From: an uncultured Litoreibacter sp.
GTDB taxonomy: Bacteria > Pseudomonadota > Alphaproteobacteria > Rhodobacterales > Rhodobacteraceae
NCBI GenBank assembly: GCA_947504205.1
Contig: CANNGL010000003.1
Span: 434,001-498,000, forward strand
Reading direction: 5' to 3'
DNA: 64,000 nt
Numbering within the stretch: position 1 is the first letter of the stretch; every line of letters begins with the position of its first letter. The position numbers and the translations under genes are program-made. The notes under the pieces are model-generated. The model was not told the DNA's origin. It searched no databases and worked only from the letters and a program-made list of their open reading frames with translations. Positions 27,562 to 34,632 of the stretch are shown in pieces.

Positions 27562-27798
27562 ATGAATTGTGTATTTGTTCAGATACGCTGCAAGCCGGGC
27601 ACGACCTATGCCGTCGCAGATGCGATTGTTCTGAAGGAAATTCATTCGGAACTCTATTCTACCAGTGGAGATTTTGATCTGCTGATGAAGCTCTATATTC
27701 CGGAAGATGCCGATGTCGGAAAATTCATCAATGAAGAGCTTCTGGATATCGATGGTATCGAACGATCTTTGACGACCCTGACCTTCAAAGCGTTTTAG
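27562..27798 (+). CDS. Stand-alone Lrp/AsnC ligand-binding (RAM) domain protein
   Basis: A 78-residue protein containing only the Lrp/AsnC effector-binding domain: FVQIRCKPGTTYAVADAIV, a central STSGDFDLLMKLYI, and GIERSLTTLTFKAF at the end. The helix-turn-helix is absent, so it cannot bind DNA alone; such proteins may sense amino acids or form heteromers with full-length Lrp-type regulators. The ATG has AGGGAG about 10 bases upstream. It follows smc by 76 bases. Confidence 0.88.
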   Translation: MNCVFVQIRCKPGTTYAVADAIVLKEIHSELYSTSGDFDLLMKLYIPEDADVGKFINEELLDIDGIERSLTTLTFKAF

Positions 27799-27985
27799 TC
27801 CATCCGGCCCGATTTCCTGATGTGAATAATTTATCAATTCGCTGAAATAGGGAATGTCCTAAGCGTCGAAGTCGGTTAATAGTTACCACACGTCAAGCCG
27901 GATCGAGGGAAGCAATTCCTGACCCTTGTCGGCGCAAGATTGGTTCGACCGCACGGTCTTTGATGCGTATTTTGAGGATATTTTT

Positions 27986-29572
27986 ATGGCACATTTCACT
28001 CCTACCAAAGTTACATACTCTGTAGATGGCGGCAAAAGTGTTGAAGCGGATTGCGATCTTCTGGTTGTGGCGTGCGATCCACGCGGGCTTAGCGATATCG
28101 GCAACTTCAGTTCCGAAGAAAAAGCGATTTTCGATGATCTGAAAAATTACACGTTTCATACAACACTGGTGAAAGTCCCGGTTCCAAGCGATGCTGCCGA
28201 TAAGGTCAAGTTTGGCGTAATCCTGAAGCCAGAGGCGATTGACCATATGGACGGGACGGTGAGCGGGTACCGCAATGAATCTGCGAAACAATTCTCGCTG
28301 GAGACCGCAAATGGCATGAGCGAAAACCTGGTGACGGTTTACCAGATACAAGGGCCAGTTGCGACGCCTTGGACCAACGAGCAATTTCTGCAAAACCTGA
28401 AAGATACACTGCAGACCCTGGATTGGTGGCCTTACGACTCGTTCGAGATCTGCACTGATGATCAGGGAACGGAGATAGCTCTTACGACGCCCTACTTCGA
28501 CCATTTTGAAAACGAAGGTCTGACGTCGCACATGCCTTGGAAATATCTGGGCGTGCAGGGTACGGGCAATACCCTTTATGTGCATGGATCTACCTGTTTT
28601 GAATCCGTTCTGCAGTGCTGGCAATTTGGGGGGCTGTTGCTGGATAACTTGGCGCATCTTGGCATCCAGTTGCCCGACGAAAAGGAAGCTTTGATCGTCG
28701 TTCTGGGGGCTGGGCCAAGCGGCATGCTGTTTGCTCACAGACTTCAGTGCATGGGCTATACGAACGTGCAGATACTGGAATCGACAGCGCGATTTGGAGG
28801 GAAAACACACACGGTTACGTTGGATGCGCCATCCCCCGACGGTACGCATAAGAAAACGGCTTGCGAGCTTGGCACGTGCTATATGTCACCAGCCTATGAC
28901 GATATGGCTGATGAGCTGAAAGACTTTCTCGTTGATAATGATCGGCATGGCTTTTGGGTGAATGCCTCTCACGAAAATCCAAACAAGCTGAGCTTCAGGG
29001 GCATGGTCACGGCTGATCAGTTCGACGGTGTCGACATGCCTGACGCCGTTATCGCCTACGGTGATTACGTTGGTCTCAAAGGCTACTATGAGGCCAACAA
29101 GCCTTTCCCCGACCCCGCCAAATGGCGTGAGGGCTTTGATCCGGTCTGGACGGGGGTCAGCGTTGGCGTTGCGTTGACCAAATATCTGCTTTTGGTTGAG
29201 TACTATGTGGGATCAAACATGCCCATGCCCACATCGGCACCCCAGGCGCTGTTGGACAAGAATTATGACAGTTTTTACGACTTCCTTGAGGATCATGATC
29301 TGTTGATCCTGACTGGATTGCTCGAATATGCTTATTCGGTACAAGGTTATGGGCCACTCAAGAAAATACCAGTCTATTACGGAATGATCTGGATCTCCGT
29401 CCCTCTCACAAAAGCGATCATCAAGGCCGCTGTTGAGGGATTGATAGGCATCGACTCTGATCCAACCGTCACAGTTCTTTCAAAAGGTTGGCTCAATCTT
29501 TGGGATCAGATGGAGCCAACGCTAAAAGTTACTTTGAACGTGGACGTGACGAGTATTGAGCGCCCAATCTAA
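27986..29572 (+). CDS. FAD-dependent amine-oxidase-like protein, apparently circularly permuted
   Basis: A 528-residue protein in which the usual flavin amine oxidase order seems reversed. Residues 1-228 look like the C-terminal half: they begin KVTYSVDGGKSVEADCDLLVVA, and contain GNTLYVHGSTCFESVLQ, resembling the C-terminal FAD-contact region. Residues 236-528 look like the N-terminal half: VVLGAGPSGMLFAHRL is the Rossmann FAD motif, followed by LESTARFGGKTHT. The end (NVDVTSIERPI) would join naturally to the start in a normal oxidase, and the two parts add up to a full-length enzyme. ATG 27986 has GAGG 8 bases upstream; a TTG 20 codons earlier is possible. Substrate unknown. Confidence 0.7.
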   Translation: MAHFTPTKVTYSVDGGKSVEADCDLLVVACDPRGLSDIGNFSSEEKAIFDDLKNYTFHTTLVKVPVPSDAADKVKFGVILKPEAIDHMDGTVSGYRNESAKQFSLETANGMSENLVTVYQIQGPVATPWTNEQFLQNLKDTLQTLDWWPYDSFEICTDDQGTEIALTTPYFDHFENEGLTSHMPWKYLGVQGTGNTLYVHGSTCFESVLQCWQFGGLLLDNLAHLGIQLPDEKEALIVVLGAGPSGMLFAHRLQCMGYTNVQILESTARFGGKTHTVTLDAPSPDGTHKKTACELGTCYMSPAYDDMADELKDFLVDNDRHGFWVNASHENPNKLSFRGMVTADQFDGVDMPDAVIAYGDYVGLKGYYEANKPFPDPAKWREGFDPVWTGVSVGVALTKYLLLVEYYVGSNMPMPTSAPQALLDKNYDSFYDFLEDHDLLILTGLLEYAYSVQGYGPLKKIPVYYGMIWISVPLTKAIIKAAVEGLIGIDSDPTVTVLSKGWLNLWDQMEPTLKVTLNVDVTSIERPI

Positions 29573-29612: not shown

Positions 29613-31391
29613 ATGCTGGAACTACGACGTAAAGCTACAACGATTGTCGCCGCCGATGTCGTCGGTTTTTCTCGTCTGGTTTCCCACGATGAAGAAGAGG
29701 TGTTCGAGCGGCTACGCAGCATCCGACAGTCGATTATTGATCCCGCCGTAGAAACGGGAGGTGGCCGTGTCATCAAGACTATGGGTGACGGTATTCTGGT
29801 TGAATTTCCTTCTCCTGATGTAGCTATCAGCGCAGCACAAGCCGTTCTGAATGCTGTCACGCTTCACGAGCACAATATCCCTGAGGATGCGCGCATTCGG
29901 TTTCGCGTTGGCATCAATCACGGCAGCGTTCTGGTCGATGGTGATGATGTGCTGGGGGATGTAGTGAATATTGCGGCGCGGCTTGAATCCTTGGCGCCGG
30001 CTGGCGGCATCTGTGTCTCTCGTTCGGTACGAGATATGGTCGAAACGGAAACCTCGTTAGAGATCAAGTCGCTTGGCATGCAATATGTCAGGAACATTCC
30101 CCAACCCGTCGAAGTCTGGCAGGTTGTGACTGAAACTGCCCCGGACGCTGCACTTGTGCAGCAACGTCGAACGGATCGCCCCTCGGTGCTTATCCTACCA
30201 TTCGACAATATGTCTTCGGTCGAGGAGGATGGGTTTCTCGCTGATGGCATTACGGATGATGTGATCAATGCGTTGTCGCGATTTCGGTCGTTGTTCGTCA
30301 TCGCGCGCGGAACTTCGTTTTCCTACAAAAACCGCAATCAGGACATTCGTCAGATCGCTCAGGATACGGGCGTGCGCTACGTGGCAAAGGGCAGTGTTCG
30401 TCGTGCAGGACAGCGGTTACGTGTTTCGGCTCAGCTGGTTGAAGCCGATACGAGCCAAGTGATTTGGAATGACAGATTTGACCGAGACATTGAGGATATC
30501 TTTGAGCTGCAGGACGATATCACACGATGCGTGGTGACCGGGCTTGCTCCTGAGATCGGGGCGCATGAACGTAACATTAGCCGACGGAAACCTACAGAGA
30601 ACCTGTCGGCGTGGGAGCTGTGTCAGCGCGGCTTGGCAGAGATCGACCAGCGCACCACTGATAGTGTCAGAAATGCCTATGGTCTGTTTCACGCGGCGGC
30701 GAAAGCAGATGGCACCTACGCGTTGCCCCATGCGCTTCTTGGGCGATTGCATGCGGTGCGTATCTACTCAGGTCGAAGCACTGATCCGGCAGACGATATC
30801 AAGAACGGCATGTACCATGCGATGCGCGCAATTGAGCTGGATGATCGGTTGGAGATTGGTCATCTCGCGTTGGCACAGCTCCTGATGATCCAGAAGCGAG
30901 AGTCTGATGCGCGTGATGCTTTGGCTCGCGCCAAGGCGCTGAATGACAACGATTCCTTCGTATACAGTGCTCAGACATTCGTGAACCTGTTTCAAGAAGA
31001 ACCAGATACAGTCGAGATGGAGGAAGCGGGGCTACAGGCCGTGCGCTTAAGCCCTAACGATCCCTTGGCATGGTCCTTCTATTGGATGCTGGTCATGTGC
31101 GTTTGGATCAGAGATAGCGAACTGGGTGAGAACGTACGTCATTATCTTGAACCAGCGGCAAGACTCCCTGGCGCGGAAGCCTTCGTCCACATCGCTGTCG
31201 CCGTCGTTGCACTCAAATGTGGCGATCAGGTTGAAGCGCAGAAGGCGCTCGACAGGGCGTTGACCGTGCGACCCGACTTGACACTCAAGATCATTCGCCA
31301 TGCGTTCCATTTCCCCAAATGGCCTGAACTGGTTGCCGGTGTCAGTCCGCAACTGGAAATGATGCTGGATATGGGTTTACCCGAAACTTAG
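29613..31391 (+). CDS. Class III adenylate cyclase with TolB-like and TPR regions
   Basis: A 592-residue signalling enzyme. The N-terminal class III cyclase domain (residues about 8-170) has the first metal aspartate in VAADVVGFSRL, GGRVIKTMGDGILVEF with the second aspartate and an adenine-selecting lysine, and the GDVVNIAARLE motif with Asn and Arg. Residues about 185-320 form a TolB/FlgO-like domain (VLILPFDNMS to VRYVAKGSVRRAG), and the C-terminus is TPR-like. This architecture is common in alphaproteobacteria. No membrane segment is obvious. It begins 40 bases after the permuted oxidase, possibly in one unit; its TAG overlaps the oxyR stop. Confidence 0.9.
   Translation: MLELRRKATTIVAADVVGFSRLVSHDEEEVFERLRSIRQSIIDPAVETGGGRVIKTMGDGILVEFPSPDVAISAAQAVLNAVTLHEHNIPEDARIRFRVGINHGSVLVDGDDVLGDVVNIAARLESLAPAGGICVSRSVRDMVETETSLEIKSLGMQYVRNIPQPVEVWQVVTETAPDAALVQQRRTDRPSVLILPFDNMSSVEEDGFLADGITDDVINALSRFRSLFVIARGTSFSYKNRNQDIRQIAQDTGVRYVAKGSVRRAGQRLRVSAQLVEADTSQVIWNDRFDRDIEDIFELQDDITRCVVTGLAPEIGAHERNISRRKPTENLSAWELCQRGLAEIDQRTTDSVRNAYGLFHAAAKADGTYALPHALLGRLHAVRIYSGRSTDPADDIKNGMYHAMRAIELDDRLEIGHLALAQLLMIQKRESDARDALARAKALNDNDSFVYSAQTFVNLFQEEPDTVEMEEAGLQAVRLSPNDPLAWSFYWMLVMCVWIRDSELGENVRHYLEPAARLPGAEAFVHIAVAVVALKCGDQVEAQKALDRALTVRPDLTLKIIRHAFHFPKWPELVAGVSPQLEMMLDMGLPET

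Positions 31392-32302: not shown

Positions 32303-34632
<2,330 letters not shown>

Follow-up and report, generated by a model that had tools for sequence, protein, structure and literature searches.

A probable natural circular permutant of the FAD amine-oxidase fold with relatives in Roseovarius and cyanobacteria

Introduction

Does an open reading frame that reads like an FAD-dependent amine oxidase with its two halves exchanged encode one rearranged flavoenzyme, or is it a fusion of fragments from different genes? The question is raised by a locus in a 64,000-nucleotide stretch of DNA from an uncultured Litoreibacter sp. (contig CANNGL010000003.1, positions 434,001 to 498,000), hereafter the window. 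Permuted genes are known to arise when a gene is duplicated and both outer ends are then lost, and an earlier note on this DNA, made from its letters, had proposed a functional permuted flavoenzyme or, alternatively, fused fragments of two tandem paralogues. Another flavin-binding fold provides a precedent: according to Murzin 1998, as cited in PMC13327496, the flavin reductase split barrel and the ferredoxin-reductase-like domain are related by circular permutation, a natural permutation as proposed here, but of a different fold. Among the matches listed in a search of open-access literature with few subscription papers, no permuted amine oxidase was reported, and the terms oxidase, flavin, FAD and oxidoreductase do not occur in the main text of PMC12667903.

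Results

The glycine motif lies mid-protein in a 528-residue open reading frame

The open reading frame runs on the plus strand from an ATG at 27986 to the stop at 29572 and encodes 528 aa, in agreement with the coordinates in the earlier note. A TTG at 27926, 60 nt 5′ of this ATG, is a possible start; the family alignment begins close to the ATG. The features of the locus are as follows.

27974..27978, plus strand: GAGGA, possible ribosome-binding site 7 nt 5′ of the ATG at 27986, read by eye
27986..29572, plus strand: candidate circularly permuted FAD amine-oxidase-like protein, 528 aa, ATG to stop (ORF, BLASTP, homologue order, alignment)
27986..28675, plus strand: residues 1-230, counterpart of the C-terminal half of canonical relatives (BLASTP; profile A3 against canonical columns 281-484)
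28571..28606, plus strand: residues 196-207, TLYVHGSTCFES, matching a motif close to the C-terminus of canonical relatives, TWYAGSSACFES (alignments)
28649..28693, plus strand: residues 222-236, linker between the old C-terminus and the old N-terminus (family alignment)
28676..29569, plus strand: residues 231-528, counterpart of the N-terminal half of canonical relatives (BLASTP; profile A4 against canonical columns 18-286)
28697..28726, plus strand: residues 238-247, VVLGAGPSGM, dinucleotide-binding glycine motif (NAD_binding_8 / Amino_oxidase; Pfam, alignment)
29613..31391, plus strand: adenylate/guanylate cyclase catalytic domain protein (PF00211), 40 nt 3′ of the oxidase (Pfam; homologue adjacent in 11 of 11 alphaproteobacterial loci)

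The motif VVLGAGPSGM stands in the middle of the protein and not at its N-terminus, as had been observed before; G241, G243 and G246, together with a downstream acidic residue, E265, are invariant in a 17-row family alignment. Above their cut-offs, Pfam reported only NAD_binding_8 (PF13450), from residue 239, and Amino_oxidase (PF01593), from residue 245, the latter match spanning only profile positions 2-69 of 443. The N-segment alone matched no Pfam family above its cut-off, and no NCBIfam model reached its cut-off for the window protein. The glycine-motif region resembles the PF01593 superfamily in passing both Pfam cut-offs, but the half order is reversed: canonical members carry the motif near the N-terminus, and with its motif at residue 238 the window protein would therefore be a permuted relative, not an ordinary PF01593 member. 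We presume that residues 196-207 form a second FAD-contact motif. The linker is short and conserved (family consensus LP-x-x-K-x-AP), L229 being invariant and P230 nearly invariant among the 17 aligned members.

The two halves match complementary regions of canonical relatives

A class-level search of 385 genomes yielded three distinct unpermuted relatives, L004, L005 and L007. The first ~228 residues had been read as the C-terminal half of the fold, and matching the halves separately by BLASTP upheld this reading: residues 233-527 matched L007 residues 47-310 (7e-20) and residues 6-224 matched L007 residues 315-515 (1e-8), complementary and non-overlapping parts of one canonical protein in swapped order. 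The N-segment aligned to L004 over residues 169-223 only, and to L005 over residues 170-223 only. Because these two proteins match just the end of the N-segment, support for residues 1-168 comes from L007, the rotated alignments and a profile comparison. There, the N-segment profile (A3) aligned to columns 281-484 of the canonical profile (A5) with a probability of 97.7% (E 1.5e-12); profile A4, built from the C-segment, aligned to columns 18-286 of the same target with a probability of 99.6% (E 5.6e-25).

When its halves were swapped, the window protein joined into one alignment with L007 (527 columns, 25% identity, 115 bits) and with L004 (528 columns, 107 bits), and aligned over 538 columns with a fourth canonical relative, L029; with L005, only 325 columns joined. 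Swapping raised the score against all four canonical relatives, which are 22-27% identical to the window protein, and gave a near-full-length single alignment with three of them. A scan that rotated the window protein two residues at a time against the same four targets placed its best cut at 232-236, with a flat top at about 220-238; for two other permuted proteins, the best cuts fell at 228-234 (L011) and 242-246 (L020), and the unrotated score was lower in 12 of 12 comparisons. Swapped-order scores against L004 and L007 were 262 and 260, versus shuffle maxima of 52 and 63 (200 shuffles, five rotations each). The profile comparison and the rotation scan together indicate that both halves of the PF01593 fold are present and complementary, and the canonical-order proteins matched by both halves score 71.7-73.7 bits to PF01593. 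The new termini fall at a point of chain continuity in the canonical proteins: the join proposed earlier, between VTSIERP and KVTYSVDGG, corresponds to L007 residues 310 and 315, where the canonical chain runs on.

No likeness was detected between the N- and C-segments (hhalign probability 0.1%; score 34, where shuffled sequences averaged 33.7 and reached 56 at most). Internal duplication was therefore rejected.

The swapped order is shared by Roseovarius and Nostocales

An alignment of the reordered window protein with three canonical proteins (A1) was used for a profile scan of genome contigs, which recovered 22 loci. Eighteen keep the window order in a one-piece alignment covering at least residues 15-526, nine of them in Roseovarius (L009-L017, 57.6-59.7% identity) and nine in Nostocales cyanobacteria (L018-L026, 42.0-46.0% identity). 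The other four (L027-L030) have the canonical order and aligned in separate pieces; L027, L028 and L030, on contigs of equal length, are apparently the same genes as L007, L004 and L005. Swapped order was also found in L072, from the genus of L009, and in L076 and L077, from the family of L020, so that the window order is common, nearly end to end, to 21 further genomes in two phyla (18 + 3). Misassembly was rejected because the same order recurs in these 21 genomes.

In the genus of L009, 9 of 79 genomes had full-length matches (the listing lacks the genome of L017). In the family of L020, 9 of 192 genomes had them, and the other 8 of the 17 matching genomes matched around the glycine motif only. 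Two such partial matches, L085 and L088, are canonical-order relatives. L091, one of five stretches of cyanobacterial genomes with second profile matches, likewise has the canonical order; L092-L095, from the same five, did not match the window protein at 1e-6. One Nostoc genome, G1009, carries both a permuted (L020/L073) and a canonical protein (L089/L091), 23% identical after reordering. As a separate observation, a ricin-type beta-trefoil lectin domain (RicinB_lectin_2, Pfam E 3.1e-35) lies N-terminal to the permuted oxidase in Nostoc sp. CCCryo 231-06 (L022:3515-5476).

Seven distinct canonical-order proteins entered the analysis, each with the glycine motif close to the N-terminus. According to the earlier note, homologues with the FAD motif in the middle would speak against permutation. 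The motif is indeed mid-protein in the close family, and the permutation still stands because the distant relatives, namely the seven canonical proteins and the structure 2b9w discussed below, carry it near the N-terminus.

Used as a single query, the window protein gave no matches in genome contigs, viral contigs, plasmids or phages, and viral scans with alignments A1 and A2 found none. Beside the window's own gene, 61 relatives and 398 genomes of the phylum yielded only L002, L003 and L008, around the glycine motif. Profile searches returned only the window's own genome from its family (1 of 248) and genus (1 of 21, E<=1e-5), and only the L023 genome itself from the class of that genome (1 of 291).

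The permutation appears to be an old trait of the family

Alignments A2-A4 comprised 17 of the 19 permuted proteins then available, the window protein included (L015 and L021 were omitted); the start of some rows was set within the open reading frame, and L022 entered without its lectin part. In an unrooted tree of 24 rows (17 permuted, reordered; seven canonical), a 100/100 branch divided permuted from canonical rows, with warnings from the tree tool that long branches meet and that letter make-up is unlike. This division is consistent with a single origin, and the half order was probably exchanged a single time, before the branches leading to Roseovarius and to the cyanobacteria parted or handed the gene on. 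The swapped layout occurs in Roseovarius and in Nostoc-group cyanobacteria; it therefore looks old and maintained, not like a broken gene. It is a long-standing family trait and not a recent event in the window genome.

Thirteen hand-picked pairs were used to estimate dN/dS (NG86), two of which, those with the window gene, were saturated. Ratios of 0.066-0.23 in six Roseovarius pairs show purifying selection; five cyanobacterial pairs gave 0.30-0.55, a weaker constraint. Of the functional permuted flavoenzyme that had been proposed, the permuted part is borne out, and the functional part gains indirect support from conservation and the low Roseovarius ratios.

A tblastn search (E 0.01) of the flanks of 17 members, up to 1 kb on each side, detected no remnant of a duplicated half. 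Duplication with truncation is one candidate route to the permuted gene; a different route to the same end product is that a canonical enzyme was split into two genes which were then re-fused in reverse. The short, conserved linker and the lack of a detectable duplication scar in these 17 members would fit such a history, but halves as separate neighbouring genes were not noticed among the loci covered here, and we regard this route as rather unlikely.

Structure models and comparison with a fatty acid isomerase

An AlphaFold model built from 17 sequences was of moderate quality (pLDDT 68.7, pTM 0.65); the single-sequence model had a pLDDT of 33.9. With the model as query, Foldseek gave 2b9w as its sole PDB match with E<=0.001 (E 4e-5). 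This structure, of the P. acnes polyunsaturated fatty acid isomerase, has a chain of 423 residues, and the alignment takes in 212 columns at TM-scores of 0.20/0.24 and an rmsd of 8.5; such low TM-scores are partly expected for a permuted chain and are no proof of the fold. Each new terminus has a predicted strand in the model (residues 7-13 and 519-525), which would fit a cut in a turn joining two strands of the canonical fold.

By sequence, the canonical relatives matched 2b9w strongly, and the two matched stretches together span both halves (E 1.9e-31). 2b9w differs from the window protein in having the canonical order, and the direct match between the two is weak (E 0.005, in the glycine-motif region), with putrescine oxidase 3rha equal at 0.004. 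Against the PDB, the N-segment profile found no amine oxidase even at E 10, its only two weak matches both being spore cortex-lytic enzymes, and the C-segment profile matched four oxidase-type sequences over only ~50 residues at the glycine motif.

A cyclase gene adjoins the oxidase in the alphaproteobacterial loci

In the window the oxidase is followed 3′ by a cyclase gene; the same holds for all 10 Roseovarius loci (L009-L017, L072), whose cyclases are 66-75% identical to that of the window, L014 and L072 showing the gene in part where the sequence ends. The PF00211 assignment rests on the window and L011 copies, and the 40-nt gap was measured for the window. Cyanobacterial L018-L026 gave no cyclase hit at 1e-6, and the short L076 and L077 likewise gave none. 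In the alphaproteobacterial loci covered here, oxidase and cyclase are probably co-transcribed, and since the oxidase lies just 5′ of the cyclase, its activity may be linked to cyclic-nucleotide signalling. Upstream, 8 of 9 Roseovarius loci carry a gene from a single cluster, whose two scanned members are Na/Pi cotransporter-like, and 4 of 9 carry a gene of a second cluster between that gene and the oxidase, the one member scanned being a sulfate permease with a cyclic-nucleotide-binding domain. The gene directly 5′ of the permuted oxidase at L009:1618-3822 encodes a member of the sulfate-permease family that has a STAS and a cyclic-nucleotide-binding domain and belongs to the cluster seen in 4 of 9 Roseovarius loci.

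This arrangement raises the alternative that the protein is not a metabolic enzyme but a flavin-dependent redox or ligand sensor feeding the adjoining cyclase. The constant presence of the cyclase in 11 of 11 alphaproteobacterial loci would suit a sensor, as would the upstream permease cluster with its cyclic-nucleotide-binding domain in four of the nine Roseovarius loci. The nine cyanobacterial loci gave no cyclase match, however, and strong conservation along the chain would suit an enzyme too, so we consider a sensor improbable. A slightly more doubtful extension holds that the permutation is adaptive, setting the two presumed FAD-contact motifs, residues 196-207 and 238-247, side by side in a central module with the termini elsewhere, for partners or for domains such as the ricin-type lectin of L022, and that the alphaproteobacterial protein is a flavin redox or lipid sensor coupled to the cyclase.

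The oxidase-cyclase pair may have been acquired

Neither the oxidase (E<=1e-5) nor a close cyclase (E<=1e-60) was found in 20 congeners, three of which are <90% complete. Regions from 8 of the 20, reaching about 12-14 kb past the SMC end, matched the window only in SMC at 1e-10, the AsnC-like, oxidase, cyclase, LysR and KatG-like genes of the window remaining unmatched. Because oxidase and cyclase were not detected in the congeners searched, the pair looks as if it was acquired in this species. The GC content of the oxidase (50.5%, versus 54.5% for the window) says little here, because Roseovarius copies also fall below their own loci (L009, 55.6 versus 60.9%). The LysR gene was not counted with the module: the best matches to it next to Roseovarius copies, found in 4 of the loci searched, are 29-31% identical.

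Two further genes in this region deserve mention. Between SMC and the oxidase lies a short stand-alone gene for an Lrp/AsnC ligand-binding domain (27562-27798, 78 aa, PF01037), which is easily missed because of its size; similar DNA is present in 11 of the 20 congeners, 10 of which have it at a separate location from the SMC match, and congener G010 matched in the AsnC part only. Near the oxidase-cyclase pair, a gene at 32404-34632, which we take to be catalase-peroxidase-like (KatG-like), was not matched beside SMC in the 8 sister regions.

Discussion

Collectively, our results make it very probable that the gene encodes a natural circular permutant whose fold is that of the FAD amine oxidases (PF01593), the nearest branch being the one that includes the P. 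acnes isomerase; the complementary matches, the better swapped scores, the profile matches and the order conserved in 21 genomes all support the permutation first suggested in the earlier note. The alternative given there, that fragments of two tandem paralogous oxidases were fused in the window genome, recently and possibly into a non-functional gene, would produce the same half order and could invoke duplication with loss of both ends, but the halves match complementary parts of one protein, 21 other genomes in two phyla keep the order with ends aligned in 17 rows, no remnant was detected up to 1 kb from 17 members and the own genome has one profile match only at E<=1e-5, so we rejected a recent local fusion as scarcely credible.

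As a circular permutant, the chain would run from the counterpart of the canonical C-terminal half through the conserved linker and the dinucleotide-binding motif to the counterpart of the canonical N-terminal half. In the amine-oxidase fold the old N- and C-termini are both close to the FAD site and thus easily tied together, and the chain would be expected to fold into the ordinary two-domain fold. We infer that the protein binds FAD; the reaction may be an oxidation by hydride transfer or an isomerisation, assisted by the flavin, of a hydrophobic substrate. A lipid-like substrate is our guess because of the resemblance to 2b9w and the acyltransferase and patatin-like genes beside L004. Those genes (acyltransferase-like, L004:14-1450; patatin-like, L004:2899-3678) flank a canonical-order relative and are a weak hint at lipid chemistry.

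The Pfam profile sees only a short stretch around the glycine motif, and families of this kind are therefore easily missed. A large cofactor-binding enzyme that is stably permuted in two phyla would offer a clean test of how enzymes survive chain re-ordering. Permuted and canonical relatives are both available, even within one genome (G1009), and their comparison would show whether chain order affects folding, FAD binding and catalysis.
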